Positions 20,420 to 33,757 of a stretch of 64,000 nt of DNA are shown here, in pieces (position 1 is the first letter of the stretch; each line of letters opens with the position of its first letter). A program made the translations under genes and the position numbers. The DNA lies in contig NZ_CANMAX010000003.1 of assembly GCF_947495995.1 (NCBI RefSeq), positions 62,001-126,000 on the forward strand, read 5' to 3'. Source of the stretch: an uncultured Tenacibaculum sp. Lineage in GTDB: Bacteria; Bacteroidota; Bacteroidia; Flavobacteriales; Flavobacteriaceae. Below the pieces are notes generated by a model. That model saw nothing but the letters and a program-made list of their open reading frames with translations. It was not told the origin of the DNA and did no database searches.

Positions 20420-21010
20420 ATGTTTACAGGTATAATAGAAACACTTGGTAGTGTTACAGAATTGGTAAAAGAGCAAGAAAATATACACTTAACTTTAAAA
20501 AGTACGATTACTGGAGAGTTAAAAATCGATCAAAGTGTTGCGCATAATGGAGTTTGTTTAACTGTAGTTGCTATTGATAATGATGAATATGTAGTTACAG
20601 CAATTAAAGAAACTATAGATAAGAGTAATATAGGAGATTTAAAAATTGGTGATGAAGTTAATCTTGAACGTGCCATGAAATTGGGAGATAGATTAGATGG
20701 ACATATAGTTCAAGGTCATGTTGATCAAACAGGTGTTTGTACAAATATTCAAGATCAAGAAGGAAGTACTTTATTTACTTTTAAGTACGATACTGAAATG
20801 AATAATATTACTATTGAAAAAGGTTCGGTAACTGTAAACGGAGTAAGTTTAACTGTAGTGAATTCAAAAGAAAATGAATTTAGCGTGGCTATTATTCCTT
20901 ATACACTAGAGCATACAGTTTTTAAACACTTTGAAGTTGGAACAAAAGTAAATTTAGAGTTTGATGTAATTGGTAAATATGTAACAAGATTACAGAGTTT
21001 ACACAAATAA
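20420..21010 (+). CDS. ribE: Riboflavin synthase, alpha subunit
   Basis: A 196-residue enzyme that converts two 6,7-dimethyl-8-ribityllumazine molecules to riboflavin. It has the diagnostic start MFTGIIETLG and two homologous lumazine-binding barrels; the second begins near DGHIVQGHVDQTG (about residue 93), and each has a NGVxLTV motif (HNGVCLTVV and VNGVSLTVV). It is a single gene ending in a strong terminator and is divergent from pdxA. No FMN riboswitch is visible in the 57-nt leader. Confidence 0.96.
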   Translation: MFTGIIETLGSVTELVKEQENIHLTLKSTITGELKIDQSVAHNGVCLTVVAIDNDEYVVTAIKETIDKSNIGDLKIGDEVNLERAMKLGDRLDGHIVQGHVDQTGVCTNIQDQEGSTLFTFKYDTEMNNITIEKGSVTVNGVSLTVVNSKENEFSVAIIPYTLEHTVFKHFEVGTKVNLEFDVIGKYVTRLQSLHK

Positions 21011-21020
21011 AAAAACTAAT

Positions 21021-21050
21021 AAATAAAGGCTACTTACTAGCCTTTATTTG
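21021..21050. terminator. Bidirectional terminator after ribE
   Basis: AAATAAAGGCTA (21021-21032) pairs perfectly with TAGCCTTTATTT (21038-21049). It ends ribE on the plus strand and overlaps the stop of the decayed precursor on the minus strand. Confidence 0.85.
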
Positions 21051-21242
21051 TTTTATAAATTGTGATAACAAGCGATCTGCCAAATCTGTGTAAGCAAAAA
21101 CCCATCCACAAGGTCCATAATCCCATGCACCTTTTACTTCTTTTAATTGCTTTTTGTTTAATACTTTTCCTAAGTCTGCAAATAATTGAACTTTAATAAT
21201 AAATAGTAATAGTAGAAAAACAAAAAAGAGCAATGTAAACAT
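21030..21242 (-). pseudogene. Decayed precursor peptide gene
   Basis: The frame contains LGKVLNKKQLKEVKG, clearly the second half of the cluster's leader, followed by a core with a single cysteine (AWDYGPCGWVFAYTDL). The normal MKKSILN start is replaced by IIKVQLFAD and has no start codon. The only upstream ATG lies within the preceding terminator hairpin, and the apparent hydrophobic N-terminus (FTLLFFVFLLLLF) is simply translated T-tract. The copy sits after the array terminator and runs into the ribE terminator. I read it as a dead precursor at the array edge; a non-ATG start (ATT) cannot be excluded. Confidence 0.6.
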
Positions 21243-21250
21243 TGCCCTTT
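21222..21250 (-). terminator. Terminator at the end of the precursor array
   Basis: On the minus strand AAAGGGCAATG (21250-21240) pairs with CATTGCTCTTT (21235-21225), followed by a run of T. It lies about 50 nt after the last intact precursor gene. Confidence 0.85.
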
Positions 21251-21302
21251 AGTACTACATGAGTTGTTTTATTTCATAGAAATAAACAACTTATTTATTA
21301 TT

Positions 21303-21479
21303 TTAGAATGGATTTGTATTATATACGCAGTAGTTTCCATTTAGAGCTGGAGTCCAATCTACGCACAAACATGCTGTCCCATCAAAAGAAATAGCTTCTC
21401 TACAACCTAGACCTCCGTTTATTTGTCTTTGTTGTTGCTTGTCTAAAGCAATGCCGATATTTGAAATTGATTTTTTCAT
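21303..21479 (-). CDS. Precursor peptide, 4-Cys core (58 residues)
   Basis: Translated by hand. The leader MKKSISNIGIALDKQQQRQINGG is 23 residues (given here as positions 1-23, ending in Gly-Gly), followed by a 35-residue core with four cysteines (GCREAI, ACLCVDW and NYCVYN contexts). It is the last intact precursor of the array and is followed by the array terminator. Export with removal of the leader after Gly23 by the C39 exporter is inferred. Confidence 0.85.
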   Translation of the reverse strand: MKKSISNIGIALDKQQQRQINGGLGCREAISFDGTACLCVDWTPALNGNYCVYNTNPF

Positions 21480-21511
21480 AATAATTAAGATTTTAATTGA
21501 TTAATTTTTAT

Positions 21512-21727
21512 TTAGATTCCGAAACAAGTAACGCTTACTAAAACTCTAGATTTACAAGCATTAGGTAAAGCGTTATATTGTTCACAAGTTCCGCAAGAAA
21601 AATTAAAAGGACCTTGAAAAGCACCATAACAAATAGGAGTAGAAGGGCAATTTGCATTTCCACCATGAATATTTTTTTGTTCTGATTTACTTAGGTTTTT
21701 TCCAATATTTAAGATTGATTTTTTCAT
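21512..21727 (-). CDS. Precursor peptide, 6-Cys scaffold A
   Basis: 71 residues: a 23-residue leader (MKKSILNIGKNLSK..., ending HGG) and a 48-residue core with cysteines spaced C-x5-C-x11-C-x2-C-x9-C-x9-C. It is a close paralogue of the next two upstream genes; they share CGTC, a Y-x-x-LP segment and a C-terminal R-V-x-V-x-V-x-C strand. No cysteine in the leader. Confidence 0.88.
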   Translation of the reverse strand: MKKSILNIGKNLSKSEQKNIHGGNANCPSTPICYGAFQGPFNFSCGTCEQYNALPNACKSRVLVSVTCFGI

Positions 21728-21745
21728 GATTTTGAGTTTTTAATT

Positions 21746-21964
21746 TTAAATAGGGAAGCAAAAAACGCTCACTTTAACACGTATCCTACATTCATAAGGT
21801 AGGTCATGATATTGCGCGCAAGTTCCACAACTAGAGCTATCAATTCCGTCAAAATACCCAAAACAAGTTGGTGTAGGGAAACAACGAACATCGCTACCTC
21901 CATTAATATTTTTTTGAGTGTTTTTATCTAGGCTTTTACCTAAGTTTAAAATTGTTTTTTTCAT
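21746..21964 (-). CDS. Precursor peptide, 6-Cys scaffold A
   Basis: 72 residues: a 23-residue leader (MKKTILNLGKSLDK..., ending NGG) and a 49-residue core with C-x5-C-x11-C-x2-C-x9-C-x9-C. The CGTCAQYHDLPYEC and RVKVSVFCF segments make it a recent tandem duplicate of its neighbours on both sides. Confidence 0.88.
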   Translation of the reverse strand: MKKTILNLGKSLDKNTQKNINGGSDVRCFPTPTCFGYFDGIDSSSCGTCAQYHDLPYECRIRVKVSVFCFPI

Positions 21965-21987
21965 AATAAAGATTTAATTAAAGTTTT

Positions 21988-22200
21988 CTATTGTTGGAAA
22001 CAACTTACACCTACTTTAACTCTCATTTTACATTCTTGAGGTAAAAGGTGGTATTGTTCGCAAGTTCCACATGGAGTAGGTACTCCTGAAACCCCATAAC
22101 ATGTTGGAGAAGACGGACAATTTGAAAACATACCTCCATTAATGTTTTTTTGAGTTTTCTTATTTAAAGATTTTCCTAGAAATAAAATTGATTTTTTCAT
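21988..22200 (-). CDS. Precursor peptide, 6-Cys scaffold A
   Basis: 70 residues: a 23-residue leader (MKKSILFLGKSLNK..., ending NGG) and a 47-residue core with C-x5-C-x9-C-x2-C-x9-C-x9-C (CGTCEQYHLLPQEC, then RVKVGVSCF). It is the third member of a tandem triplet. Differences are concentrated in the loop between Cys2 and Cys3, while the ends are conserved. Confidence 0.88.
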   Translation of the reverse strand: MKKSILFLGKSLNKKTQKNINGGMFSNCPSSPTCYGVSGVPTPCGTCEQYHLLPQECKMRVKVGVSCFQQ

Positions 22201-22212
22201 GTTTTTTAATTT

Positions 22213-22419
22213 TTAGAAAGGAAAGTTTCCACTACGACAAGAACCATAATTTTCGCAACGATACATTGGATCGTTTCCTAAAAATGGATAGTTACTTAAC
22301 CAAAATCCTTGAGTTCTAGTGCAACAGAACTGGTATGGTGTAGGAATAAATCCTCCATGAACTTCTTTTTGTTGAGCCTTATTTAAAGTTACTCCTAATT
22401 TTAAGATTGAATTTTTCAT
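22213..22419 (-). CDS. Precursor peptide, CC-type 4-Cys core
   Basis: The frame is open further upstream, but the leader ATG at 22419 (MKNSILKLGVTLNK...) is the start by analogy; the upstream part overlaps the previous gene. 68 residues: a 23-residue leader ending HGG and a 45-residue core with adjacent cysteines (QFCCTR), then C-x5-C near the end. It is a diverged relative of the two genes just upstream. Confidence 0.85.
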   Translation of the reverse strand: MKNSILKLGVTLNKAQQKEVHGGFIPTPYQFCCTRTQGFWLSNYPFLGNDPMYRCENYGSCRSGNFPF

Positions 22420-22442
22420 AATTTTTAAAGTTTTTAGATTTT

Positions 22443-22655
22443 TTAATACACAATTCCTCCACCGTTTGGAGTACAAGAAACATCTTCACAATCCCATCTT
22501 GGTCTAAAACCATATTCGGCTATCCAAGCACTTACGGGTATTGGTAAACAACAAAAATTATATTCAGTAGGAGCTGGAAAGCCACCACTTCCTTTAACTT
22601 CTTTTTGAGCTTTTTTATTTAAAACTGTACCTAAGTTTAAGATTGATTTCTTCAT
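22443..22655 (-). CDS. Precursor peptide, CC-type 4-Cys core
   Basis: 70 residues. The leader ends KGSGG, so cleavage may follow Gly-Ser (residue 23) or Gly-Gly (25). The core has CC-x19-C-x4-C, with FPAPTEYNFCCLPIPVSAW and IAEYGFRPRWDC segments nearly identical to the neighbouring gene at 22667-22882. A recent tandem duplicate. Confidence 0.87.
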   Translation of the reverse strand: MKKSILNLGTVLNKKAQKEVKGSGGFPAPTEYNFCCLPIPVSAWIAEYGFRPRWDCEDVSCTPNGGGIVY

Positions 22656-22666
22656 GTTTTTAAGTT

Positions 22667-22882
22667 TTAGTAAACAATATCTCCAGCTGGTTCACATACA
22701 TATCCTTCACAGGTATAATTAGGTCTGTAGCCATATTCAGCTATCCAAGCACTAACAGGAAATGGAAGACAACAGAAATTATATTCTGTTGGCGCAGGAA
22801 ATAATCTTATCCTCCCGCCTAAAATTTCTTTTTGAGATTGTTTGTTTAATGCTTTTCCAATATTTAAGATTGATTTTTTCAT
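22667..22882 (-). CDS. Precursor peptide, CC-type 4-Cys core
   Basis: 71 residues: a 23-residue leader (MKKSILNIGKALNK..., ending LGG) and a 48-residue core with CC-x19-C-x4-C. It shares PAPTEYNFCCLP-PVSAW and IAEYG-RP with the downstream gene, and both end IVY. Confidence 0.88.
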   Translation of the reverse strand: MKKSILNIGKALNKQSQKEILGGRIRLFPAPTEYNFCCLPFPVSAWIAEYGYRPNYTCEGYVCEPAGDIVY

Positions 22883-22902
22883 AATTTTTTGTGTTTTAAT
22901 AA

Positions 22903-23109
22903 TTAGTCATAAAAGCATCCGAAGTCTATTTGAGGACAAGTCTCTGCTCCAGGATAATTATGTAATTGATTGCAAGGAATACATAAAGGATCGTTGTCGG
23001 CAAAGCAAAAATTTTGGTTTGCATAATAATAACAATTGTCGCCACCTTTAATAAACTGTTGTTGATTTTTGTTTAATTGTTTTCCTAAGTTTAAGATTGA
23101 TTTTTTCAT
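22903..23109 (-). CDS. Precursor peptide, 6-Cys scaffold B
   Basis: 68 residues: a 23-residue leader (MKKSILNLGKQLNK..., ending KGG) and a 45-residue core with C-x8-C-x7-C-x2-C-x11-C-x6-C. The pattern (aromatic after Cys2, then CIPC) matches the distant gene at 27331-27564 and is a variant of scaffold A. Confidence 0.87.
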   Translation of the reverse strand: MKKSILNLGKQLNKNQQQFIKGGDNCYYYANQNFCFADNDPLCIPCNQLHNYPGAETCPQIDFGCFYD

Positions 23110-23167
23110 TTGTATAGTTTAACAAAGAGGAGTTATAAAACTCCTCATTTGTTTGTTGAATATTGTA

Positions 23168-23359
23168 TTAATAGTTTACCCAACCACCGCGTCCATCGCA
23201 TACACCAGGACAGTGTGGAGGTCCGCATTTTATTGTTGTAGTTGCTGTTGGGCAGGCTTCAGCGCAAGTTCTTATTCTAATTAAGTCAATTCCCCCATTA
23301 ACTTTTGTTTGCTCAGCTTTATTTAAAGCTTTACCGATGTTTAAGATTGATTTTTTCAT
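23168..23359 (-). CDS. Precursor peptide, 5-Cys core
   Basis: 63 residues: a 23-residue leader (MKKSILNIGKALNK..., ending NGG) and a 40-residue core with five cysteines (RTCAEAC, IKCGPPHC, GVC). It is the only intact precursor with an odd number. It is the first gene of the block led by pseudoknot copy 1. A free thiol or dimerisation is possible. Confidence 0.85.
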   Translation of the reverse strand: MKKSILNIGKALNKAEQTKVNGGIDLIRIRTCAEACPTATTTIKCGPPHCPGVCDGRGGWVNY

Positions 23360-23382
23360 AATCTAAAGATTTAAAAATTGAT

Positions 23383-23450
23383 TAAATCCTTGAACATTTA
23401 AAGACACTCAAGGTTTGTGTCTGATCTTCGCGAAAAAATTGTTCAAAAAA
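23383..23450 (-). promoter_or_regulatory. Conserved pseudoknot-like leader element, copy 1
   Basis: On the minus strand GACAC (23421-23417) pairs with GTGTC (23407-23403). The loop segment CCTTGA can pair with the downstream TCAAGG (23393-23388), giving an H-type pseudoknot. TTCGCGAA precedes it, and GAACA/TGTTC can form an outer stem. The tail ends 28 nt before the next precursor's ATG. Confidence 0.6.
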
Positions 23451-23531
23451 GTCAAGACTTTTAATTAATGAACAATACTGTTGTGTGTTTTAATACAGTT
23501 AAAAGACTGTATCTAAGTTTTTGTAGTTAGA

Positions 23532-23738
23532 TTAACTACAAGGAATTTCGAAATAAATTCCACGAACACATATGTTATCTGAGTTACAGATGTATCCATA
23601 AGACAAGTTACTTGGAAATGTTAAAAAACAGTCGCAATCGCTACTGCATCGGTTTACAGATAAACCACCACTTCCTTTAATCTCTTTTTGCTCAGTTTTA
23701 GCTAAAACTTTACCAAGTTCTAAGATTGATTTTTTCAT
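23532..23738 (-). CDS. Precursor peptide, 6-Cys core
   Basis: 68 residues. The leader (MKKSILELGKVLAK...) ends KGSGG. The core has six cysteines (RCSSDCDC, YICNSDNIC, EIPC) in a pattern not shared with the other members. It is the only gene in its block, with pseudoknot copies on either side. Confidence 0.87.
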   Translation of the reverse strand: MKKSILELGKVLAKTEQKEIKGSGGLSVNRCSSDCDCFLTFPSNLSYGYICNSDNICVRGIYFEIPCS

Positions 23739-23762
23739 AATAATGAAAGATTTAAAAAATGA

Positions 23763-23831
23763 TTAAATCCTTGAACATTTAAAGACACTCAAGGTGTATG
23801 TCTATTCTTTGCGAGAGAATTGTTCAAAAAA
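23763..23831 (-). promoter_or_regulatory. Conserved pseudoknot-like leader element, copy 2
   Basis: GACAT pairs with GTGTC through a terminal G-T wobble; the loop CCTTGA pairs with TCAAGG (forward 23769-23774). Outer GAACA/TGTTC pairing is also possible. The tail ends 30 nt before the ATG of the gene at 23532-23738. Confidence 0.6.
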
Positions 23832-23865
23832 GCAATTGCTTTACGAACGATATTTTGATTAAAGC

Positions 23866-24078
23866 TTAAAAACAAGCACATAAATCTGTAGTACCGTATT
23901 GACCAGGATAAGTATTAGCAATTATACCTCCGGTTTCACCACAATGTTGTGGAGTACAACAGATACGATCTCCAGTGTTTACTAAACATCTAAATTTAAT
24001 TAGAGTTCTTCCACCAGTGATTTCTTGTTGTGTTGTTTTATGTAAAGCCTTACCTAAACTTAAAATTGATTTTTTCAT
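23866..24078 (-). CDS. Precursor peptide, 6-Cys core
   Basis: The start is the leader ATG at 24078 (MKKSILSLGKALHK...), not the more upstream ATG of the open frame, which lies inside the previous gene. 70 residues: a 23-residue leader ending TGG and a 47-residue core with CC (RICCTPQHC) and a terminal CAC. Related in its CC pattern to the next two upstream genes. Confidence 0.86.
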   Translation of the reverse strand: MKKSILSLGKALHKTTQQEITGGRTLIKFRCLVNTGDRICCTPQHCGETGGIIANTYPGQYGTTDLCACF

Positions 24079-24098
24079 GATATTTAATTCTTTAAATA

Positions 24099-24290
24099 TT
24101 AAAATTGACAAGCTCCATGAGTAGGTAAAACACACATAAAGTTACAGCAGATATGATCTGGTACTCCACAGAAGAATCCAAATCTTGTTCTACATAATCC
24201 ATATTCATCAGGATCGTTAAAACTACCTGTGATATTTTTTAATTCGTTACTTGAAAGTTTTTTACCTAAGTTTAAGATTGATTTTTTCAT
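24099..24290 (-). CDS. Precursor peptide, 6-Cys core
   Basis: 63 residues. The leader (MKKSILNLGKKLSS...) ends TGS, so the processing site is Gly-Ser. The 40-residue core has six cysteines, including HICCNFMC. The two residues after NKA/SS differ from the usual leader helix. Confidence 0.86.
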   Translation of the reverse strand: MKKSILNLGKKLSSNELKNITGSFNDPDEYGLCRTRFGFFCGVPDHICCNFMCVLPTHGACQF

Positions 24291-24310
24291 GATAATTTTT
24301 GTTTAAATAT

Positions 24311-24484
24311 TTAGATACACACTGGTCTTGAAGAAAAACTATAACGGCAGTTTCTTGTTCCGCCTGGTCTACAACAATGTAATGCAGGGTCGCAACAAAT
24401 AATTAATGATAATCTACCACCATTGATTTCTCTTTGTTCGGTTTTATTTAAAGCCTTACCAACGTTTAAAATTGATTTCTTCAT
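24311..24484 (-). CDS. Precursor peptide, 6-Cys core (57 residues)
   Basis: Translated by hand. The leader (MKKSILNVGKALNK..., ending NGG at 23) is followed by a 34-residue core with six cysteines, including two CC pairs (IICCDP and LHCCRP), and ends RPVCI. It is the first gene after a 261-nt gap with no pseudoknot copy that I can recognise. Confidence 0.85.
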   Translation of the reverse strand: MKKSILNVGKALNKTEQREINGGRLSLIICCDPALHCCRPGGTRNCRYSFSSRPVCI

Positions 24485-24704
24485 AATGTTTTGATTTTAA
24501 AAGGTTAATTAAAAAGTGTAGTGTTTTAACTTTAAAACAGTAATAGTTGAAAAGCTAAATTTCTTCATTTACGAATTGCATCAAATAGTCGAGTGACTCA
24601 AATTTTATAAATATGAGGTATACGAAAATTTAAAAGCAATTTTAACAACAGTATAGACAGTAAGTTCTCTAAAAAAGACGTTGAATAGTTACTTTTTTAA
24701 GTAA

Positions 24705-24726
24705 GGGATATACTCTAGTATATCCT
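24705..24726 (-). terminator. Hairpin after a single-gene precursor block
   Basis: GGATATAC (24706-24713) pairs with GTATATCC (24718-24725) around TCTA, preceded by a second small hairpin. The T-tract is poor, so termination is uncertain. The 24485-24745 gap otherwise holds no gene I can see. Confidence 0.45.
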
Positions 24727-24745
24727 GTATTTTAAAACAAAGTGT

Positions 24746-24910
24746 TTAACAAACACTAGAACAATTGTCGAAGCAAATACCGAGTTCCATTCTATCTCTA
24801 GAATTGGCTACGCAATTGTCGTAACATTCATAACATGATGTTCCACCATGAATTCTTTTTTGTTGAATTTTGGAAATAGGAGTGCCAAAATTTAGGATCG
24901 ATTTTGTCAT
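24746..24910 (-). CDS. Precursor peptide, 6-Cys core (54 residues)
   Basis: Translated by hand. It is the shortest and most diverged leader (MTKSILNFGTPISK..., ending HGG at 23), with a 31-residue core holding six cysteines in the order C-x2-C-x3-C, a central spacer, then C-x3-C-x3-C at the C-terminus. The spacing resembles a helical hairpin stapled by disulfides. It follows pseudoknot copy 3. Confidence 0.83.
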   Translation of the reverse strand: MTKSILNFGTPISKIQQKRIHGGTSCYECYDNCVANSRDRMELGICFDNCSSVC

Positions 24911-24930
24911 AATCGAAAGATTTAAGGTTA

Positions 24931-24986
24931 ATTAAATCCTTGTTTGTTTTAAGACATCAAGGTTTATGTCTATTCTTCGCGAAAAT
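24931..24986 (-). promoter_or_regulatory. Conserved pseudoknot-like leader element, copy 3
   Basis: GACAT pairs with ATGTC (24970-24953 side), a compensated change from GACAC/GTGTC. The loop CCTTG pairs with CAAGG (forward 24938-24942). It abuts the hlyD stop codon and ends 27 nt before the next precursor ATG. The outer GAACA stem is missing here. Confidence 0.6.
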
Positions 24987-26276
24987 TTATTTTATAGCTT
25001 TTTTAAGTTGATAAAAGAATCGTTCTATCAACCTAAGATCTTCAGTAATTATATCTGCACTACCTTGCATTTCTTGTCTAAATTCCAATTGTTTTTGGTA
25101 TGTAGTTTTTAAGTTTTCAGGTAGTTCAACATCAATTATATAATTTCCTTCTTGATCTGGTACAAATGATATGTGTTTTACTTTTCCATTAAGTTCACCA
25201 AATTCATCTGAAGGATAATTTAATAACTTGATTTGTACTTTTTGTCCTAATTTTATTTTACCAGAATTGGCAATCGGAGCTTTAATTTTTCCGATAAAAT
25301 CTTTTGAGTTCTCTGGTATAATTGTAAATATTAAATCACCTGCTTTTACAGTTTGATTTTCACTCCAAAAAGAAAGGAAAGAAACTTTTCCACTCATAGA
25401 AGTTGTTAAAGCATAACTGTTTTCCCAATCACTTATTGCTTTCTTTAATAATAAGAAAGATTGTTTAGCTCTTTTTTGAAGCCCTCTATCGTTTTGAGTT
25501 TGTTTTATAGTGGTGTCGTCTAAATTTTGAGATGAACTATTAATTAATTCTCTAATCTGTAAAATAGATGCTTCCATCGATTTGTCGTTTCTTACAGCTT
25601 GTATATATTGAATCTCTCTTTGTTCCATCTCTTTAGCAGAGATTACACCTTTTTCAAAAACTTTCTTACTTCGTTCAAAATCTGTTTTTTTATACTCAAG
25701 TTCTTTCTCACTTAATTTTTTTTGATAAAGCATATTTTGTAGCCTTCTGCGAGCTTCAATTACACTCATCTTATTTGCCATCACTTGAGATTGAAATGGT
25801 GCTAGTTCTTTGTTTAATTGGTAGCTTTGATAGTCATTTTCAAATTGAGAATAGCTTGAGTTTATGTCACCCAAGATTAATGGAGGAATATCATCTATAG
25901 GAAAAGTGAATTCTTCATTGTTAATCGTAATTGTATCAACTATACTCTTTAAAAAAAGTACATTTTTATACGATGCACTGTTTTCTATTACAGCAATAAT
26001 TTCATCTTTTTCTACTTCACTTCCTTCGTTTGCTAATAATACCTCAAACTGACCAGAAGCTTTTGCATAAATTTTTTCTGGTGGAATTGCTGTAGTAACC
26101 ATTACTTGAGTGGTAATTACATCTGGGTATTTAACGAACCAAGAAATAAAAAGTAATATTAAAATTAATACTAAGATTAACATATTACCATACCTAATCA
26201 TCCAACTTGGAACTTTGTTAAGTATTTCTTGAACTTCTTCGCTTCTAATCTCTATGTCTTGACTATTCTGTGGCAT
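24987..26276 (-). CDS. HlyD-family membrane fusion protein of the peptide exporter
   Basis: A 429-residue periplasmic adaptor. One transmembrane helix near residues 30-48 (MLILVLILILLFISWF) follows a cytosolic N-terminus. The periplasmic part has a split lipoyl/barrel-sandwich domain (KIYAKASGQFEVLLANEG and later YALTTSMSGKVSFLSFW), a long coiled coil between, and a beta-barrel C-terminus (KLGQKVQIKLLNYPSDEFG). It would link the ABC exporter to an outer-membrane duct that is not encoded here. A strong hairpin lies 12-30 nt before the ATG. Confidence 0.9.
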   Translation of the reverse strand: MPQNSQDIEIRSEEVQEILNKVPSWMIRYGNMLILVLILILLFISWFVKYPDVITTQVMVTTAIPPEKIYAKASGQFEVLLANEGSEVEKDEIIAVIENSASYKNVLFLKSIVDTITINNEEFTFPIDDIPPLILGDINSSYSQFENDYQSYQLNKELAPFQSQVMANKMSVIEARRRLQNMLYQKKLSEKELEYKKTDFERSKKVFEKGVISAKEMEQREIQYIQAVRNDKSMEASILQIRELINSSSQNLDDTTIKQTQNDRGLQKRAKQSFLLLKKAISDWENSYALTTSMSGKVSFLSFWSENQTVKAGDLIFTIIPENSKDFIGKIKAPIANSGKIKLGQKVQIKLLNYPSDEFGELNGKVKHISFVPDQEGNYIIDVELPENLKTTYQKQLEFRQEMQGSADIITEDLRLIERFFYQLKKAIK

Positions 26277-26287
26277 CTATTTGAAAA

Positions 26288-26310
26288 AGTAAGGGGAAAT
26301 GTTTCCCCTC
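26288..26310 (-). terminator. Hairpin (attenuator) between a precursor block and hlyD
   Basis: AGGGGAAA (26292-26299) pairs with TTTCCCCT (26302-26309). On the minus strand it is followed by TTACTTTTTC and, within about 15 nt, by the hlyD start. It probably lowers hlyD expression relative to the precursors upstream. Confidence 0.65.
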
Positions 26311-26391
26311 ACTATTTTTATGAGTTAATTTTAAATATAAATAAAGAAAATTCATAGCTTTTTATGTCGAATGAATGTTTCTTTATTTTGT

Positions 26392-26634
26392 TTACAATAC
26401 TGATCCTACTCTAACTTTAAAACCAGATTCTCCAGATTCTGTTATGCAAGAAACACAACGACCATCATTAGGGTTGGCTCCATATCCTAAAACAGAACTA
26501 AGTGCAGCTAAACAAGAACTTTGTTCAGCGTAACATCTGCTTTCTAAAAAGCTCCCTGTTACAGAAGAACCTTTTATGTTCAAAAGTTCTTTTTTGTTAA
26601 GAACTTTACCTATGTTTAAAATAGAATTTTTCAT
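26392..26634 (-). CDS. Precursor peptide, 4-Cys core
   Basis: 80 residues. The leader (MKNSILNIGKVLNK...) ends KGS, followed by a 57-residue core with four cysteines (SRCYAEQSSC and DGRCVSC) and no aromatic cluster. It is the last precursor before hlyD. Confidence 0.86.
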   Translation of the reverse strand: MKNSILNIGKVLNKKELLNIKGSSVTGSFLESRCYAEQSSCLAALSSVLGYGANPNDGRCVSCITESGESGFKVRVGSVL

Positions 26635-26643
26635 AATGTTTTA

Positions 26644-26838
26644 TTAGTAAGCTTGAACACAACAATTTCTGAAACAGAAAGTTGGGCCGTTAGGTATAAT
26701 TGTGTTTACACATTGGTTACAAGAGCTAACTGGGTATTGTGCAAATCCAGAACAAGTAGATCCAAAACCTCCACCGTTAATATTTTGTTGTGCTTTTCTA
26801 TCTAAAGCTTTTCCTATGTTTAAAATTGATTTTTTCAT
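26644..26838 (-). CDS. Precursor peptide, 6-Cys core
   Basis: 64 residues. The leader (MKKSILNIGKALDR...) ends NGGG; the core (about 41 residues) has six cysteines (STCSG, SSCNQC, TFCFRNCC). The central CNQC recalls the CxxC of scaffolds A and B. Confidence 0.87.
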   Translation of the reverse strand: MKKSILNIGKALDRKAQQNINGGGFGSTCSGFAQYPVSSCNQCVNTIIPNGPTFCFRNCCVQAY

Positions 26839-26868
26839 GTTTTTTTAATTAAAATAATTGATGTTGTC

Positions 26869-27120
26869 CTAGCACAAAGGATGTGTAGGGTTTAGTAAGC
26901 AAAAAGAAGTTAAATCTATTGGAGGTCCAATCGGTGAAGGACCAATAGGATTTTCAATTTCAATTTCTCTACAATCGAAGTTTCCACATATTGGATGACT
27001 CCATCTACCAGTACTGTAATTACATGTACAAGCTGGTAATTGTATATCGCTACTACCTTTTATATTAATTTGTTCTTGTTTATTAAGAACTTTACCTAAA
27101 TCTATAATTGATTTTTTCAT
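26869..27120 (-). CDS. Precursor peptide, 6-Cys core with proline-rich tail
   Basis: 83 residues. The leader (MKKSIIDLGKVLNK...) ends KGS. The core has six cysteines (ACTCNY, PICGNFDC, SFC and a C-terminal LC) and a Pro/Gly/Ile-rich stretch (NPIGPSPIGPP). One of the longest cores. Confidence 0.86.
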   Translation of the reverse strand: MKKSIIDLGKVLNKQEQINIKGSSDIQLPACTCNYSTGRWSHPICGNFDCREIEIENPIGPSPIGPPIDLTSFCLLNPTHPLC

Positions 27121-27129
27121 TCTATCTGA

Positions 27130-27318
27130 TTAACAGTTTCCGATACAGATGTTAAATACACAAGTGTAACAAATTACAGAGCCTACTGGGCAACCTGTAT
27201 TTTCACAACTTGGACAATCTGAATCAACGTTACAAGAGCTTATACCAACCCCACCACTTATTTTTTTCTGCTGAGATTTGTTTATTGCTTTTCCTAGATT
27301 TAAAATTGATTTTCTCAT
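27130..27318 (-). CDS. Precursor peptide, 8-Cys core
   Basis: 62 residues. The leader (MRKSILNLGKAINK...) ends SGG. The 39-residue core has eight cysteines, about one residue in five (SSCNVDSDCPSC, TGCPVG, VICYTC, NICIGNC). It is the most cysteine-dense member and a likely compact knotted fold. Confidence 0.87.
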   Translation of the reverse strand: MRKSILNLGKAINKSQQKKISGGVGISSCNVDSDCPSCENTGCPVGSVICYTCVFNICIGNC

Positions 27319-27330
27319 GATTTGGATATT

Positions 27331-27564
27331 TTAGAATCCTCCTGAGAATCCTCCTCCGTCTTCACAGCTAACATGAGTAAATAAACCACATTCTCTAGCG
27401 TTTACATAGTCATCAATACGACCGCATGGTTGACATCCTGGAAGAGGTCCAAAACAAAGATTGTATTGACGATAATATGCACATTGGAAAGGTTCTCCAC
27501 CTGTAACCTTTTTTTGTTCAGCTTTGTTTAAAGCTTTACCTACATTTAAGATTGATTTTTTCAT
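27331..27564 (-). CDS. Precursor peptide, 6-Cys scaffold B
   Basis: The start is the leader ATG at 27564 (MKKSILNVGKALNK...), not the upstream ATG, which falls inside the pseudoknot leader. 77 residues; the core has C-x8-C-x6-C-x2-C-x11-C-x7-C and a Gly-rich tail. Same scaffold as 22903-23109, although the two lie 4.4 kb apart. First gene of the block before hlyD. Confidence 0.87.
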   Translation of the reverse strand: MKKSILNVGKALNKAEQKKVTGGEPFQCAYYRQYNLCFGPLPGCQPCGRIDDYVNARECGLFTHVSCEDGGGFSGGF

Positions 27565-27587
27565 AATTATATAGATTTTAAAAAAAT

Positions 27588-27647
27588 AAATCCCTGAACA
27601 TTTAAAGACACTCAAGGTTTGTGTCTATCTTCGCGATAATATTGTTA
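27588..27647 (-). promoter_or_regulatory. Conserved pseudoknot-like leader element, copy 4
   Basis: GACAC (27625-27621) pairs with GTGTC (27611-27607); the loop CCTTGA pairs with TCAGGG with one wobble (forward CCCTGA, 27592-27597). It sits between the exporter stop and the next precursor, ending 27 nt before the ATG. Confidence 0.6.
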
Positions 27648-27652
27648 TATGT

Positions 27653-29839
27653 TTAGTTCCCTAGTTCAAGTTGATTCTTAACTAGGTGATAATAACTTCC
27701 TTTTAATTTAATAAGTTCTTCATGATTTCCTTGCTCTACAACTTTACCTTGATCTAGAACAACAATTTGATGAGCATTTTTTACTGTACTTAAACGGTGT
27801 GCGATTACAACCGCAGTTTTATCAGCAAAAAAGTTATTTAAATTCTCCATGATTACTTTTTCATTATTTGCATCTAAAGCAGATGTTGCTTCATCAAAAA
27901 ATAAGAATTTCGGGTCTTTATATACAGATCTAGCAATTAACATACGTTGCTTTTGTCCTGTACTTAAACCATTTCCTTCGCTACCAATTTTAGTGTTGTA
28001 TCCTAAAGGTAATGCTTCGATGTAATCAGAAATATTGGCAACATTAATAGCATGACTTAATTTTTCTTTATCTACATAATCTTCTCCAACGGCAATGTTT
28101 TTAGCAATACTGTCATTAAAAATATAACCTTCTTGCATTACCACACCACAATTCCTTCTCCATTCTTTTTGTGAAATATTTTTTAAGTTGAAATTACCTA
28201 CCATAATTTCTCCTTTTTCTATTTGATAGAAACCAAGTAAAAGTTTCATTAAAGTAGTTTTACCACTACCACTTACTCCAACAATTGCTGTGGTTTTATT
28301 TGCTGGAATTTCTAACGATAAGTCTTTGATAACAGGTTCTAATCCTCCGGTATATCTAAACGAAACATTTTTTAGTTGTATAGCTTTGTTTACCGGGATA
28401 TTTACAACTTTTTCGTCGCCAGGTTTTTCTTCATCCTCCATGTTGTGAATTTCACCTAAACGATCTAAAGATATTTGAGCATCTTGAACGTCTCTCATGA
28501 AATTGATCAGTTGCATAATCGGACCATTTAATTGTCCAACAATGTAACTAATGGCCATCATCATACCTAAAGTGATATCTCCATCAATAACAAGCTTAGC
28601 AGATAAAATAGTAATGAACATGTTTTTAAGCTCATTGATAAAATTAGAACCTACACTTTGTGTTTGTTCTAAAGCTAAGCTCTTTGTAGCAACTTTAAAT
28701 AATCGTGCTTGAACATATTCCCAGTTCCATCGCATGCGACGCTCAGCATTATGCAATTTAATTTCTTGCATTCCATTAATAAGCTCAATAACCTTACTTT
28801 GTTCTTGACTTACCTCTGAGAATCTTTTATAATCGAGTTCTTTTCTTTTCTTGAAGAAGAATAGTACCCAAGTAAAGTAAAGTACACTTCCTAATACGAA
28901 AACACCAAAGATCTGTAAGCTGTAAAAACCTAAAACGAAACTGAATATAATTAAGTTTATAAATGAGAATAGAACAGTTAAAGACGATGTCGTTAAAATT
29001 CTCTCGATTCTTTTATGATCGTTAATTCTTTGTAATAAATCTCCTGTCATTCTTACATCGAAGTAAGAAATAGGAAGTTTCATTAATTTAATAAAGAAAT
29101 CAGAGATTAATGAGATGTTTATTCTCGTACTTAAGTGAAGTAAAATCCAGCTTCTAATAATTTCAAGAGATGCTTTTCCGAAGAAAAGAAACAATTGAGC
29201 AAATAGAATAAGATATACGAAATTTAAATCCTGATTCTTAATACCAACATCAACTACACTTTGCGTTAAAAAAGGTAATATCAGTTGCAGTAAACTTCCA
29301 GCTAATAATCCAATAATTAACTGTGCAATGAATTTTTTGTATTTGATTAGATATCTAAAGATGAAAGAAAACCCAAACTTTTCATCTTCTTCAAATTCTT
29401 GAGAGTAAAATGCAGCAGTAGGTTCTACTAGTAAAGCAATACCTTCTTCTGTGTTTTCATCAGCATTGTTTCCAATCCAATGCTTTATAAATTCTTCTTT
29501 GGTTAGTGTAATTAAACCGTGAGCTGGATCTGAAATATAAACACTGTTCTTTTTGATTTTATAAAGAACTACGTAGTGGTTTTTGTTCCAGTGTACAATA
29601 CAAGGTAACGGAGCTTCTTTTAATTTTTCAAAAGCTAATTTGATACCAAGAGATTTGAATCCCATAGATTCAACAGCATCACTTAAACCAAGTAAACTAC
29701 TTCCTTCTCGTGTTGTTTCACTTAATTCTCTTAGCTGTTGCGTGTTTATAGTTTTACCATAATGTTTAGCTATAATTTTTATACAAGTAGGTCCGCAATC
29801 CTTTGCTTCAGTTTGTTTATAATGTGGAAATTTTCTCAA
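27653..29839 (-). CDS. Peptidase-containing ABC exporter (C39 PCAT)
   Basis: A 728-residue transporter that cleaves double-glycine leaders and exports the cores. The N-terminal C39 cysteine peptidase has Cys15 (KDCGPTC), His88 (NKNHYVVLY) and Asp104 (SDPAHG), all intact. A six-helix ABC membrane domain covers about residues 165-450. The ATPase (490-728) has Walker A (GVSGSGKTT, 521-529), LSTGQ (625-629), Walker B (FLFFDE, 645-650) and His681. The start codon is TTG at 29839, chosen because it gives the canonical RKFPHYKQTEAKDCGPTC start and no ATG fits. Two precursors precede it and five follow. Confidence 0.95.
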   Translation of the reverse strand: MRKFPHYKQTEAKDCGPTCIKIIAKHYGKTINTQQLRELSETTREGSSLLGLSDAVESMGFKSLGIKLAFEKLKEAPLPCIVHWNKNHYVVLYKIKKNSVYISDPAHGLITLTKEEFIKHWIGNNADENTEEGIALLVEPTAAFYSQEFEEDEKFGFSFIFRYLIKYKKFIAQLIIGLLAGSLLQLILPFLTQSVVDVGIKNQDLNFVYLILFAQLFLFFGKASLEIIRSWILLHLSTRINISLISDFFIKLMKLPISYFDVRMTGDLLQRINDHKRIERILTTSSLTVLFSFINLIIFSFVLGFYSLQIFGVFVLGSVLYFTWVLFFFKKRKELDYKRFSEVSQEQSKVIELINGMQEIKLHNAERRMRWNWEYVQARLFKVATKSLALEQTQSVGSNFINELKNMFITILSAKLVIDGDITLGMMMAISYIVGQLNGPIMQLINFMRDVQDAQISLDRLGEIHNMEDEEKPGDEKVVNIPVNKAIQLKNVSFRYTGGLEPVIKDLSLEIPANKTTAIVGVSGSGKTTLMKLLLGFYQIEKGEIMVGNFNLKNISQKEWRRNCGVVMQEGYIFNDSIAKNIAVGEDYVDKEKLSHAINVANISDYIEALPLGYNTKIGSEGNGLSTGQKQRMLIARSVYKDPKFLFFDEATSALDANNEKVIMENLNNFFADKTAVVIAHRLSTVKNAHQIVVLDQGKVVEQGNHEELIKLKGSYYHLVKNQLELGN

Positions 29840-29855
29840 GTAATTTATTTAAAAT

Positions 29856-29880
29856 ACTGGAGAACATAAAGCTCTCCAGT
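29856..29880 (-). terminator. Hairpin between precursors and the ABC exporter
   Basis: ACTGGAGA (29856-29863) pairs with TCTCCAGT (29873-29880). It ends 17 nt before the exporter's TTG start, a similar arrangement to the hlyD hairpin. The T-tract (TATTTTAAAT) is weak, so partial attenuation is more likely than full termination. Confidence 0.5.
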
Positions 29881-29923
29881 TTGGTTGATTAATACAATAT
29901 CTAATTTTAAAAAATGAAATATT

Positions 29924-30193
29924 CTAAGCCATTGGACCGTCTATTGGTCCGTCTCCTCCGCCGTTTGATGGACGACAAACAGGATGATTATATACGAAAT
30001 AAGGAAGTTCTAGATAGCAACTTTGTGATTGTCCTCCGTCTAAACTTGCTCTACCAGATCCAATCATTAAGGTACATGAATATTTACACCATGTTCCAGA
30101 TCCAGTTCTTCTGTGAAAAAAAAGTCCCCCTTTAACTTCTTTTAATTGTTTTTTGTTTAAAGCTTTTCCTAAGTTTAAAATGTGTTTCTTCAT
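29924..30193 (-). CDS. Precursor peptide, 4-Cys core with Gly-rich tail
   Basis: The start is the leader ATG at 30193 (MKKHILNLGKALNK...), not the upstream ATG at 30244, which overlaps the previous gene. 89 residues, the longest precursor. The 66-residue core has four cysteines (GTWCKYSC, QSCYLEL, HPVCRPS) and ends in a Gly/Pro/Asp-rich tail. Confidence 0.86.
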   Translation of the reverse strand: MKKHILNLGKALNKKQLKEVKGGLFFHRRTGSGTWCKYSCTLMIGSGRASLDGGQSQSCYLELPYFVYNHPVCRPSNGGGDGPIDGPMA

Positions 30194-30218
30194 AATTAAA
30201 AAATAAAAGGTTATTGGT

Positions 30219-30473
30219 TTAGATACAACATGTATCAAATTCATCTACACAGAAGTGAGTTGGTAATGTACATCCAATTCCACCACCGTTTCCGCCGCCA
30301 TTTCCTCCTCCATTATCAGAGTTGTCTTCGTAACATAAGTGGTTATCACAATAACTTCCTTGAGGGCATTCTCCATTAGCATCACAAAATGCTATGAATC
30401 TTCTGCCTCCATTAATTTCTTTTAATTTTTGCTTGTCTAAAGCCTTTCCTAAGTTTAAAATTAATTTTTTCAT
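30219..30473 (-). CDS. Precursor peptide, 8-Cys core with GGGN linker
   Basis: 84 residues. The leader (MKKLILNLGKALDK...) ends NGG. The core has two four-cysteine modules (AFCDANGEC, SYCDNHLC and GCTLPTHFC, DTCCI) joined by a flexible NGGGNGGGNGGG linker, so two small disulfide domains are likely. First precursor of the whole array. Confidence 0.87.
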   Translation of the reverse strand: MKKLILNLGKALDKQKLKEINGGRRFIAFCDANGECPQGSYCDNHLCYEDNSDNGGGNGGGNGGGIGCTLPTHFCVDEFDTCCI

Positions 30474-30504
30474 AATAATTAAAATTTTAAAACTACATTT
30501 GTGG

Positions 30505-30561
30505 CGAACATTTTAAGACACTCACCGAGTGTGTCTATTCTTCGCGAGAGAATATTGTTCA
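30505..30561 (-). promoter_or_regulatory. Conserved pseudoknot-like leader element, copy 5
   Basis: GACAC pairs with GTGTC as in copies 1 and 4. In the loop-to-tail helix, GGTGA now pairs with TCGCC (forward 30503-30507), two compensated base pairs relative to CCTTGA/TCAAGG. The element follows the oxidase terminator directly and ends 29 nt before the first precursor. Confidence 0.6.
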
Positions 30562-30592
30562 AAAAAGCAAAGTCGTGAAAACGACTTTGCTT
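30561..30592 (-). terminator. Terminator after the VKOR-thioredoxin gene
   Basis: GCAAAGTCGT (30567-30576) and ACGACTTTGC (30581-30590) form a perfect 10-bp stem. On the minus strand T6 follows. The oxidase is therefore largely transcribed separately from the precursors. Confidence 0.88.
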
Positions 30593-30597
30593 ATATT

Positions 30598-32208
30598 TTA
30601 TAGTTCTGTATGTTGTGGGATGTTACTACAACTTTCTTCTAAATCTTCAATAAAGAAAATTAAGTCAGGTCTGTTGTACTCTTTCGGATAAGATTTACCG
30701 TTAATAAGAATTTCTGGAGTAAAGTTTATTCCATTAGCAACGCACCAATCTTTCTCAGATTTTAAAACTTCAATTGGATTCGTAGTGTGGTCGTTTTTGT
30801 TCCATTTTTCTAGCCATTTTTCGTGATTTTTTCCGCTGTATATTTCGTCTAAAGCAATTTTACAATCTTCAATTTGCCCTCTGTTGTATAAGTCTATTAA
30901 AGTAGTTGTTACTTTAACTCCAGGGTTTTCAAGATCATCTATACCAACATTAAATCGAATAACGATTTTAACAAGGTCGTTGTATTTTTTTAATATTTCA
31001 TCTACGATTTCATGCACTCCTTTACAGTGTCCGCAAAAAGGATTTGTTACCGTAATGATTTCAAGAGCAGCATCTTTGTTTCCAAAAATAATTTCATTCG
31101 GAGAATCTATTGCAGTATTTAAACTTGGTGATTTTACAAGTAAGCTGTTAAATAAGTTGAAATTTCGTTTAAACTTTACAAAATCTATTTTCTCTTTTTG
31201 TAATTCACTCAATTCTTTAGCTCTAGGTTTAGTAAAACTCCATGCTAAATATGTAGCAACAAAAGAAAGTACTGTTACGGCGATTGTTGTAACATCTATA
31301 CTATTGAATAAAGTAACAGGATTGTTACCAATAAAAGCTAACGAAGCTTGTAGCCATAAAACTCCAACAATTGTTAAACATAATAAACACCAAGATTTAA
31401 CAACTTTGTATTGGTAGTAAATTGAGTATACCGTGATTGGTAATGAAGCTAAGCTGATTAAATATAATGTGCTTAGGTTTCCTGATAGGAGAGAAGTTAA
31501 CAAGACACTTGAAAAATAAATGATACTTAAATCACTTAATTTATGTCCTTTAATTATTTCAGCTCCTTTCGAGTTTAATACTGCATCACAATCTTTTTTC
31601 TCATCAGTACCAGAACAAAAAGCATTTCCAATAGCTGTACTTTCACCTAATTCTTGTTTTAAAATACTGTAACTAGTTATAACTCCTAGAATAGAAAGGA
31701 TCGTATAAGCAAAAGAAGTAATACTGGTTTCTCTATTAATAAGTAAAAATATTACAATGGCAGAAGCAATAGCTGCGAGAGCAATACTCTTGACTTTGCT
31801 TTCTTCTTTAGTTGTTGTAATATCATCAGTTTTTTCAACAGCAACAATAATACCTGTAAACTGAGTTAAAAATTCACCTTCAGATAATTTCTTTTCTTTA
31901 TTATCTTCTCCGCTAACTAATGTGTAAATAGCGTTTTTAGGATTTCTTTTAACGGTAACAAGATCGTTTCCTTTGTCTGTTGAAACTTGAGCAATAAAAC
32001 TATCTGGTAGTTGTTGTAGCGTTTGACTGTCAGTTGGAACTTCAGCAGCAATATTTTCAATATTGAAATGATCTAAAACTCCTGTAATTGCGTGTAAACT
32101 TGGATAAGAAGGATGACTTTGAATTTGAAAGGCTAATTCTTTCTTATCATAAACAATTCCGTTATAAGATAGTAACTTTTGTACTATCAGAGATAATGCA
32201 TTTTTCAT
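30598..32208 (-). CDS. C39-like / VKOR / thioredoxin fusion, disulfide-forming oxidase
   Basis: A 536-residue inner-membrane protein. Residues 1-125 resemble a C39-like fold without the catalytic cysteine (SHPSYPSLHAITGVLDHF). About 145-330 form a VKOR membrane domain with loop cysteines Cys198 and Cys207 and the active WCLLC pair (274, 277). From 365 a periplasmic thioredoxin domain carries CGHC (392-395). Such fusions oxidise thiols and pass electrons to quinone; here the obvious substrates are the exported cysteine-rich cores. The frame opens at a TTG (32229), but the ATG at 32208 is the better start. Two inverted repeats lie just upstream. Confidence 0.88.
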   Translation of the reverse strand: MKNALSLIVQKLLSYNGIVYDKKELAFQIQSHPSYPSLHAITGVLDHFNIENIAAEVPTDSQTLQQLPDSFIAQVSTDKGNDLVTVKRNPKNAIYTLVSGEDNKEKKLSEGEFLTQFTGIIVAVEKTDDITTTKEESKVKSIALAAIASAIVIFLLINRETSITSFAYTILSILGVITSYSILKQELGESTAIGNAFCSGTDEKKDCDAVLNSKGAEIIKGHKLSDLSIIYFSSVLLTSLLSGNLSTLYLISLASLPITVYSIYYQYKVVKSWCLLCLTIVGVLWLQASLAFIGNNPVTLFNSIDVTTIAVTVLSFVATYLAWSFTKPRAKELSELQKEKIDFVKFKRNFNLFNSLLVKSPSLNTAIDSPNEIIFGNKDAALEIITVTNPFCGHCKGVHEIVDEILKKYNDLVKIVIRFNVGIDDLENPGVKVTTTLIDLYNRGQIEDCKIALDEIYSGKNHEKWLEKWNKNDHTTNPIEVLKSEKDWCVANGINFTPEILINGKSYPKEYNRPDLIFFIEDLEESCSNIPQHTEL

Positions 32209-32219
32209 AGGGAGGCAAC

Positions 32220-32270
32220 GGTATTTCAACTTAGAAATACCAATTTAATTTATTGGTTGATGCCAATAAA
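32220..32270 (-). promoter_or_regulatory. Two 8-6-8 inverted repeats upstream of the VKOR gene
   Basis: GGTATTTC (32220-32227) with GAAATACC (32234-32241), and TTTATTGG (32249-32256) with CCAATAAA (32263-32270). Each repeat has perfect 8-nt arms and a 6-nt spacer. They could be operators for a dimeric regulator or leader hairpins of the oxidase mRNA. Confidence 0.5.
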
Positions 32271-32458
32271 GTTACAATTTTTTTTAAATAACCAATTTCT
32301 TGTTGTTAAATTTAACATTTTTTTCTTTTTAATAAGATTGTGTTTTTTATCTTGAAAAGGTAATTTAAAAGTTAAAAAATTATTGATTTTCAAAAAAGTA
32401 GAAGGGATTCGTTGAAAATTATTTTACTTATTAAATTAGCAAACGTTAAGAATATTAA

Positions 32459-33214
32459 ATGAAGGGAGAAATTTTAAAAAAGCATATAGAGGAACTTCAC
32501 AACTCTAATGTTATAGATAAAAACGATCTTAACTCGTTTTTAGAAAAGTATAAAGTATTAGGTGATATAGGTATTAATTCAAACTCGTTATTCTATATTT
32601 TGAATTTAAATACAATGAAGTATGAATATGTTAATAATGCTTGTTACAGTTTTACAGGTTATAATACTTCTGATTTCTATGATTTAGGAATGGCTATTTT
32701 ACCTAAAATAATGCTCGAAAAAGATTTTGAATTACTATCAAATGATTTATTTCCTAAAATGAATGAGTTTTCAAAAAACTTAAACGTTACTCAGCAAGGA
32801 AAAATTGTATTTGAAATTTATTATAAGGTAAAGCATAAATCTACAGGAAAGATTGTTCAGCTAGTAGAGTTTAGTTCGTACACGAAGTTTGATGTTAATA
32901 ATGTGCCCATTTTATCTACAGGTTTATGCTATGAATCTAGTCAGGAATTAAATGGAGTAAAAGGAATTGTACGTTTAAATGAAAACGAAAAGCAAACCAC
33001 TTTGTTTGAAGAAAAACTAAGTTACAAAAATGTGAAGTTAACCAAAACTGAAAACATAATTTCTCAATTACTAATTAGTGGTTTGTCAAGAAAAGAAATT
33101 GCATTAAAACAAAATACTTCTCTACATACAGTAAATACACATATAAAGAATATGTATAAAAAACTGAATGTAAATAAGGTCTCTGAACTTATAAAAATTA
33201 TAGGAGAGCGATAG
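32459..33214 (+). CDS. PAS-like / LuxR-type transcription regulator
   Basis: A 251-residue cytosolic regulator. About residues 35-165 look like a PAS-type sensor (NSLFYILNLNTMKYEYVNNA, FTGYNTSDFYDLG). The C-terminus (about 185-250) is a clear LuxR/GerE helix-turn-helix (LTKTENIISQLLISGLSRKE, then LHTVNTHIKNMYKKLNVNKV). It is divergent from the VKOR gene with 250 nt between, making it the best local candidate to control the peptide cluster. No terminator is obvious behind it. Confidence 0.85.
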   Translation: MKGEILKKHIEELHNSNVIDKNDLNSFLEKYKVLGDIGINSNSLFYILNLNTMKYEYVNNACYSFTGYNTSDFYDLGMAILPKIMLEKDFELLSNDLFPKMNEFSKNLNVTQQGKIVFEIYYKVKHKSTGKIVQLVEFSSYTKFDVNNVPILSTGLCYESSQELNGVKGIVRLNENEKQTTLFEEKLSYKNVKLTKTENIISQLLISGLSRKEIALKQNTSLHTVNTHIKNMYKKLNVNKVSELIKIIGER

Positions 33215-33321: not shown

Positions 33322-33373
33322 ATGACCGAATAGTCATTAATATTTTTACTCTAAAAAATGACCTTGCTGTCAT
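33322..33373 (+). promoter_or_regulatory. Paired ATGAC-N6-GTCAT operators of the XRE controller
   Basis: Two palindromes, ATGAC-CGAATA-GTCAT (33322-33337) and ATGAC-CTTGCT-GTCAT (33358-33373), have centres 36 nt apart. The second overlaps the ATG of the controller gene, so binding would repress the gene's own expression. The layout is like that of restriction-modification C-protein boxes. Confidence 0.65.
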
Positions 33374-33593: not shown

Positions 33594-33757
33594 TGTATTA
33601 AACAAAGACCCTCTATTATGCATAGGTATTTTTACCAGTTTTGAGTTGTTTTTTTAACAAACTAATTTAACTAGTAGAGTATTATAGGAAAAATGAAAAT
33701 CTTGTACCGTAGCAATAATATGGTTATATTTCGAGGTTTATAAAGTTATATAGGAGA

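Follow-up and report, generated by a model that had tools for sequence, protein, structure and literature searches.

A candidate RNA pseudoknot heading blocks of double-glycine-type peptide genes in Flavobacteriaceae

The window considered here is a stretch of 64,000 nucleotides from an uncultured Tenacibaculum sp. Its minus strand carries blocks of short precursor-type genes, genes for their putative export and maturation, and five copies of a small element. Each copy consists of a hairpin (stem S1) whose loop can pair with a downstream tail (helix S2), behind an upstream block (P0). The features are listed below, with scores in bits referring to R1, a covariance model described further on.

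21303..23359, minus strand: short precursor-type genes in a block with copy 1 at its head
23388..23422, minus strand: pseudoknot copy 1 (R1 76.3 bits), heading the precursor block that starts at 23359; S1 pairs 23417-23422 with 23402-23407, S2 pairs 23408-23413 with 23388-23393
23427..23434, no strand assigned: P0 palindrome TTCGCGAA of copy 1, variants of which precede other copies
23769..23803, minus strand: pseudoknot copy 2 (R1 75.0 bits), heading the precursor that starts at 23738
24938..24971, minus strand: pseudoknot copy 3, with five S2 pairs (R1 64.7 bits), heading the precursor that starts at 24910
24987..26276, minus strand: HlyD-family secretion adaptor (PF13437)
26392..27564, minus strand: precursor-type gene block headed by copy 4
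27592..27626, minus strand: pseudoknot copy 4, with one U-G in S2 (R1 69.2 bits), heading the precursor that starts at 27564
27653..29839, minus strand: C39-peptidase ABC exporter (PF03412, PF00664, PF00005)
29924..30473, minus strand: two precursor-type genes headed by copy 5
30503..30536, minus strand: pseudoknot copy 5, S2 GGTGA/TCGCC (R1 59.8 bits), heading the precursor that starts at 30473
30561..30592, minus strand: terminator-like hairpin of 12 bp with a T run behind it, located between copy 5 and the VKOR gene
30598..32229, minus strand: VKOR and thioredoxin fusion (PF07884, PF13462)

The C39-peptidase ABC exporter lies beside peptides with GG leaders, the arrangement of a double-glycine-type export cluster, and would cut off these leaders, while the VKOR-thioredoxin fusion, whose N-terminus is weakly C39-like (PF03412, E 0.00024, under Pfam's cut-off), would form disulfides in Cys-rich peptides. 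From the exporter, the HlyD adaptor and the fusion as neighbours, we infer that the Cys-rich peptides probably undergo export, cleavage and disulfide bonding. Neither NCBIfam (three precursors tested) nor Pfam (two) gave a match; the first precursor of the copy 4 block (27564) was read from the sequence, the leader pattern having missed it. This gene set of peptide, thiol oxidoreductase and ABC transporter resembles that of the bacteroidetocin loci, which comprise a small peptide, a thiol oxidoreductase and a double-glycine-peptidase ABC transporter (PMC6671954); in that text no leader RNA was found, the words 'untranslated' and 'pseudoknot' occurring 0 times. Divergent from the peptide cluster lies a gene for a LuxR-type (GerE) regulator at 32459-33214, a candidate regulator. 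Positions 33372-39092 hold an XRE-type HTH gene, a C5 cytosine methyltransferase, a 940-aa protein with two GHKL-ATPase domains and a 307-aa protein without Pfam match, and look like a restriction or defence island.

Read directly from the sequence, the five copies claimed in the earlier note are all real: each lies on the minus strand and can form both helices. The S1 hairpin is AGACAC/GTGTCT in copies 1, 4 and 5, AGACAT/GTGTCT with one U-G in copy 2, and AGACAT/ATGTCT in copy 3. The pairing of loop with tail is CCTTGA/TCAAGG in copies 1 and 2; copy 4 keeps it by a wobble (CCTTGA/TCAGGG, U-G), and copy 5 has GGTGA/TCGCC, in which two C-G pairs have become G-C and one U-A has become U-G. Copy 3 has five S2 pairs only (CCTTG/CAAGG), because the last A of CCTTGA is also the first base of ATGTC. 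From the end of S2 to the ATG we counted 28, 30, 27, 27 and 29 nucleotides in copies 1 to 5, in agreement with the proposed 27-30. The claim that one upstream sequence precedes four of the copies has to be corrected: exact TTCGCGAA is present in copies 1 and 3 only, with variants ATCGCGAA in copy 4, CTCGCGAA in copy 5 and CTCGCAAA in copy 2. The P0 block of copy 3 directly follows the HlyD stop codon, and copy 4 is placed behind the peptidase/ABC exporter gene. In the block starting at 24484, the gap of about 250 nucleotides before it (24490-24740) contains no R1 element, so not every precursor block carries one.

An exact pattern search gave two further loci in the same genome, and R1 was built from the five window copies and two others of this genome, with S1 alone entered as paired. 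Its best match in another genome of the genus reaches an E-value of 3e-19, and the resemblance among the five copies is therefore not due to chance. A covariance-model search of the family, as had been proposed, carries the element far beyond the window. With R1, the genome itself yields 14 matches (E<=0.001). Within the genus, 52 of 166 genomes are hit at E<=0.01, one of them as many as 24 times, and within Flavobacteriaceae the element turns up at E<=0.001 in 46 of 397 genomes, representing 38 of 237 genera, own genus included. A pattern scan of named genomes returned 84 stretches, including ones from Tenacibaculum, Aquimarina, Dokdonia, Polaribacter, Lutibacter, Bizionia, Winogradskyella, Psychroserpens, Gaetbulibacter and Ulvibacterium, and from two MAGs named Cytophagales and Roseivirga. 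A broader model, R2, matched 9 of 246 genomes of the order and 8 of 395 of the phylum. Most of these belong to Flavobacteriaceae, and the element is therefore rare elsewhere. Beyond the family, R2 matches came from two genomes of the order (G628 and G739) and one of the class (G957). The last has a knot before a peptide whose leader ends in FGG, with S1 changed on both sides (AGTCAG/CTGACT). The G739 match (L299) was dismissed, S2 being unable to form in its sequence, and that of G628 (L296) stands before a non-peptide gene. Good R2 matches at L240 (430-489) and L296 (916-975) precede secreted- or envelope-type proteins, and no double-glycine peptide gene was seen behind either; L296, a short contig whose base composition changes abruptly, may be misassigned.

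We assembled a collection of 336 copies from 82 genomes (one place, L051:54 = L175:6652, is counted twice). The eight weakest or end-cut rows were left out of the counts, as were L021, L022, L036:1233 and the end-cut L045:1; matches inside longer refetched regions were taken from those regions, and duplicates with identical flanks were removed. The layout is that of an H-type pseudoknot, a hairpin loop pairing with a downstream tail, with both helices covarying. S1 has six base pairs and a core conserved in sequence (mostly AGACA/TGTCT); the loop opens with A and its final 5-6 nucleotides form S2, no nucleotide separating S2 from the 3' side of S1. A crossing loop, mostly of 8-9 nucleotides, TTAAATGT-like and with nearly invariant central adenines, precedes the S2 tail. 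S2 itself (5-6 bp) varies freely in sequence while pairing is kept, its forms including CCTTGA/TCAAGG, CTGTGA/TCACAG, CGGTGA/TCGCCG, CCCTGG/CCGGGG and the flip TCAAGA/TCTTGA. Among the 258 copies with full S1 and a 9-nucleotide loop, 254 open the loop with A, and two crossing-loop adenines never vary in the 208 of these in the common register, an invariance that is partly due to selection since R1 favours such fixed bases. The juxtaposition of a fixed S1 and crossing loop with a free S2 may reflect base triples or a binding face.

S1 is fully paired in 295 of the 336 copies. The pairing of S2 is an independent test, because S2 is not among the paired columns of R1; it was scored in the best of seven registers in 328 of the 336 copies, and at least five of the six pairs form in 321 of them. 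Of the 268 distinct loop-tail combinations, 97.4% reach this level of pairing, whereas tails shuffled and scored alike give 67.6%. For the 135 combinations lacking CCTTGA the figures are 94.8% and 48.3%. From the 308 copies with a GG motif and at least five S1 pairs we chose 94 representatives, of which 91 were aligned and three odd ones left out; S1 pairing in this alignment is thus partly a result of selection. Two-sided changes occur at 16 of 18 pairs (4/6 in S1, 6/6 in S2 and 6/6 in P0), and 98.0% of cells are paired in S1 and 89.4% in S2. The covariation score of the whole structure is 0.367 against 0.188 in shuffled alignments (0 of 500 shuffles were equally high), with two-sided change in 172 cells against 46.5 in shuffles; kinship inflates these covariation values, related genomes and copies of the same genome not being independent. 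Versions shifted by 1-3 columns do worse by all measures.

The two strands of a DNA dyad are equivalent, and G-U and A-C mismatches would therefore be about equally frequent in it. In the 91 sequences, S1 shows 38 G-U and 3 A-C on the coding strand, and S2 45 and 20, counts likewise inflated by kinship; counted per genome, U-G occupies the inner S1 position in 46 of 81 genomes and C-A in 3. From this excess of G-U in both helices it follows that the knot behaves as a single-stranded nucleic acid of the sense strand. The structured RNA with two covarying helices put forward in the earlier note is thus strongly supported, both pseudoknot helices covarying strongly in the 336-copy collection, while its upstream TTCGCGAA block finds no support as a component of that fold. 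On the covariation, the element is likely an RNA pseudoknot.

No match to any of the 4227 families of Rfam 15 overlaps the five copies at gathering thresholds; within positions 21000-32500 of the window none overlaps them at E<=5, and in 20 further loci the elements are likewise free of overlap at E<=1. Among the titles and abstract beginnings listed in literature searches, none names this element, which we propose as a candidate new family within a known kind, the structured leader RNA. Compact riboswitches of the preQ1-I type are short H-type pseudoknots close to a start codon, their crossing loop rich in A, and the knot shares all three traits. Unlike in preQ1-I, its S2 stops 24-30 nucleotides before the start codon and the genes are predicted secreted peptides; the preQ1-I model of Rfam shows no overlap with the five copies or the 20 other loci. 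In the leader of T4 gene 32, a pseudoknot tens of nucleotides upstream of the start codon acts in translation. Compared by description only, that leader serves a single autoregulated phage gene, whereas the knot forms a many-copy family of Bacteroidota. The Downstream-peptide motif (RF01704), described as lying in possible 5' UTRs of short peptide genes (PMC2864571), is also a structured RNA ahead of short peptide genes. It is listed for cyanobacteria and marine samples, whereas the knot is associated with double-glycine-type leaders, its copies heading gene blocks, and RF01704 does not overlap the five copies or the 20 other loci (E<=1). Flavo-1 (RF01705) is, like the knot, an RNA motif of Bacteroidetes. 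It has no match within the 11.5 kb around the copies at E<=5 and 0 matches in the whole genome at E<=0.001, a search of little weight by itself since the control genomes likewise gave 0. Flavo-1 is described as occurring sense or antisense to transcribed regions, with a function that is not clear (PMC9723704), whereas the orientation and position of the knot are constant.

Downstream of 314 of the 336 copies lies an ORF (median 63 aa) in which a G followed by G, S or A, a loose version of the double-glycine motif, occurs within residues 11-40. The distance from knot to ATG is 24-30 nucleotides in 288 of 308 copies, and this spacer has 9.5% G+C and 2.0% G. In the last 14 nucleotides before the ATG, G makes up 0.9% in 213 element-bearing precursors, against 6.1% in 97 element-free precursors and 10.8% in 549 long genes; from -28 to -14, a stretch into which S2 extends, the difference is small (7.6% against 9.3% and 12.0%). 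The element is present before 92 of 101 precursors less than 150 nucleotides behind a long gene, 80 of 127 behind a larger gap and only 44 of 242 closely behind another precursor, the block-head share being inflated since loci were fetched for holding the element, and the leader pattern used for this count missing some precursors (216 element-bearing ones were recognised). Copies mostly head precursor blocks, and in the window two lie directly behind the adaptor or exporter gene. The 198 internal precursors without element follow the previous precursor at a median of 18 nucleotides. At L331 (4245-5384), in the same genome, the element precedes a gene for a 379-aa lipoprotein-like protein, and a precursor gene follows 17 nucleotides on.

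Upstream of the knot, 71 of the 231 elements behind a long co-directional gene begin at most 9 nucleotides from its stop, while for 147 copies the gap to the nearest gene found exceeds 100 nucleotides, or no gene was found. The upstream genes often end in an LVKNQLELG-type sequence (as does the window exporter) or an IERFFYQLK-type one (as does the HlyD adaptor). A perfect GC-rich hairpin is present upstream of 59 of the 336 elements (in the window and at loci such as L115-L136), in 43 of them ending 13-18 nucleotides before the element; in other genera these hairpins often run into GAAC, with no T run in the sense direction. The ATG that occurs in the tail of 188 of 308 copies was rejected as the start of an upstream ORF, neither stop nor frame being consistent. 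A readthrough or frameshift stimulator was likewise rejected, the distance to the upstream stop being too variable.

What would a pseudoknot do at such a distance from the start codon? Our preferred reading, held with about evenly balanced confidence, is that the knot would likely set the translation start of each precursor block. Among the roles suggested earlier (translation, processing or attenuation), translation is the best fit, and attenuation by an intrinsic terminator falls on the composition of the spacer. Ribosomes of Bacteroidia do not recognise Shine-Dalgarno sequences (PMC9976891), hence our placing of the knot at the upstream edge of the 30S subunit; the near-constant distance and the G-poor A/U run to the ATG would resemble an element at this edge. 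There the knot would recruit the bound subunit or hold it off, perhaps switched by a protein or small molecule bound at the conserved S1/loop face. Since most internal precursors lack a knot, it is dispensable for translation as such; those without element are near enough to the previous precursor for coupling, and tightly spaced downstream precursors might thus be translated by translational coupling. With many copies per genome, one signal could act on all peptide blocks. A competing helix between flank and tail (GAACA/TGTTC) that would exclude S2 was rejected as a general feature, 0 of 64 TGATC copies having GATCA. It may form in a subset: GAACA and TGTTC are both present in 51 of 328 copies, against 29.4 in shuffles (the highest of 1000 gave 41), and GAACA occurs in 46 of the 158 TGTTC copies.

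Transcript stability or processing would also account for the block pattern. The main rival to translation initiation, possible though on balance rather unlikely, is a processing or stabilising element: the long mRNA would be cut near P0 and the new 5' end protected, so that the precursors outlast the exporter mRNA. The 71 elements at most 9 nucleotides past a long-gene stop leave little space for a promoter outside that gene, 92 of the 101 precursors just behind a long gene carry the element, the recurrent LVKNQLELG- and IERFFYQLK-type gene ends are in keeping with it, and the GC-rich upstream hairpins (59 of 336, 43 of them at 13-18 nucleotides) are like a guard at the 3' end of the upstream piece. 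It leaves unexplained the spacing of 24-30 nucleotides to the ATG and the G-poor spacer, and the 147 copies far from any gene found do not suit it.

The near-invariant loop adenines and the fixed S1 beside a free S2 suggest a recognition face, as would be expected if the knot were the binding domain of a riboswitch or of a protein-responsive leader acting on transcription elongation. We consider this improbable, as a spacer of about 2% G and 9.5% G+C leaves no space for an intrinsic terminator; within such a reading, a Rho-dependent route may be envisaged.

P0 raises the question of a DNA operator or alternative-sigma promoter, with dyads that merely resemble RNA stems. By pair counting, 65.4% of P0 cells are paired in the alignment, with two-sided changes at all six pairs. 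Its status as a third RNA helix is nevertheless unsupported: strand asymmetry is absent (52 G-U, 52 A-C in the 91 sequences) and its halves show no pairing excess (3.41, and 3.37 once the halves are shuffled, by a crude statistic). A perfect palindrome of at least 8 is present in 52.5% of 255 distinct flanks, against 9.5% when shuffled, and in 29.4% of the 85 flanks without CGCG, against 11.6%. P0 often stays perfectly palindromic while its sequence shifts (CGCG, TGCA, CTGCAG and TCGA centres). This pattern would resemble an operator or a self-pairing loop, and P0 may act at the DNA level, as a palindrome. The canonical promoter was also considered. The -7 box of sigma-A is TAnnTTTG (PMC9723704); 14 such boxes lie at -130 to -25 of the 147 free-standing elements, at most 2 per place, and the promoter was rejected. 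For the 92 elements close behind a gene, 6 boxes lie 70-72 nucleotides before S1, within that gene. With no box at a fixed place and conservation upstream of the knot stopping about 22 nucleotides before S1, transcripts probably begin at varied upstream starts. The palindromic, strand-symmetric P0, the absence of a fixed TAnnTTTG box and the nearby LuxR-type gene would all suit an operator for the whole block. Such an operator is nonetheless highly doubtful, since S1 and S2 favour G-U over A-C on one strand and are interleaved rather than nested, and upstream conservation ends so close to S1. A site of recombination or transposition, folded as single-stranded DNA, would account for a multi-copy structured repeat within variable peptide arrays. 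It is most improbable given that a peptide-type ORF follows 314 of the 336 copies in the same orientation, with 24-30 nucleotides in between for 288 of 308.

Returning to translation initiation, a bolder and distinctly tentative proposal is that of a dedicated ribosome-entry switch for bacteria blind to Shine-Dalgarno sequences: the knot would gate 30S loading on every secreted-peptide array through a single factor, and RNA, not a promoter, would define the antibacterial-peptide regulon. As a candidate RNA family, the element covaries clearly, occurs in 38 of the 237 Flavobacteriaceae genera sampled as well as in a few other Bacteroidota, goes mostly with double-glycine-type peptides and, in the window and 20 other loci checked, matches nothing in Rfam 15. 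In Bacteroidia, where start sites are selected without Shine-Dalgarno pairing, a knot 24-30 nucleotides from the start codon offers a testable handle on this selection. The models led to peptide ORFs with several dissimilar leaders, and the element could also be used to search for small peptide genes.
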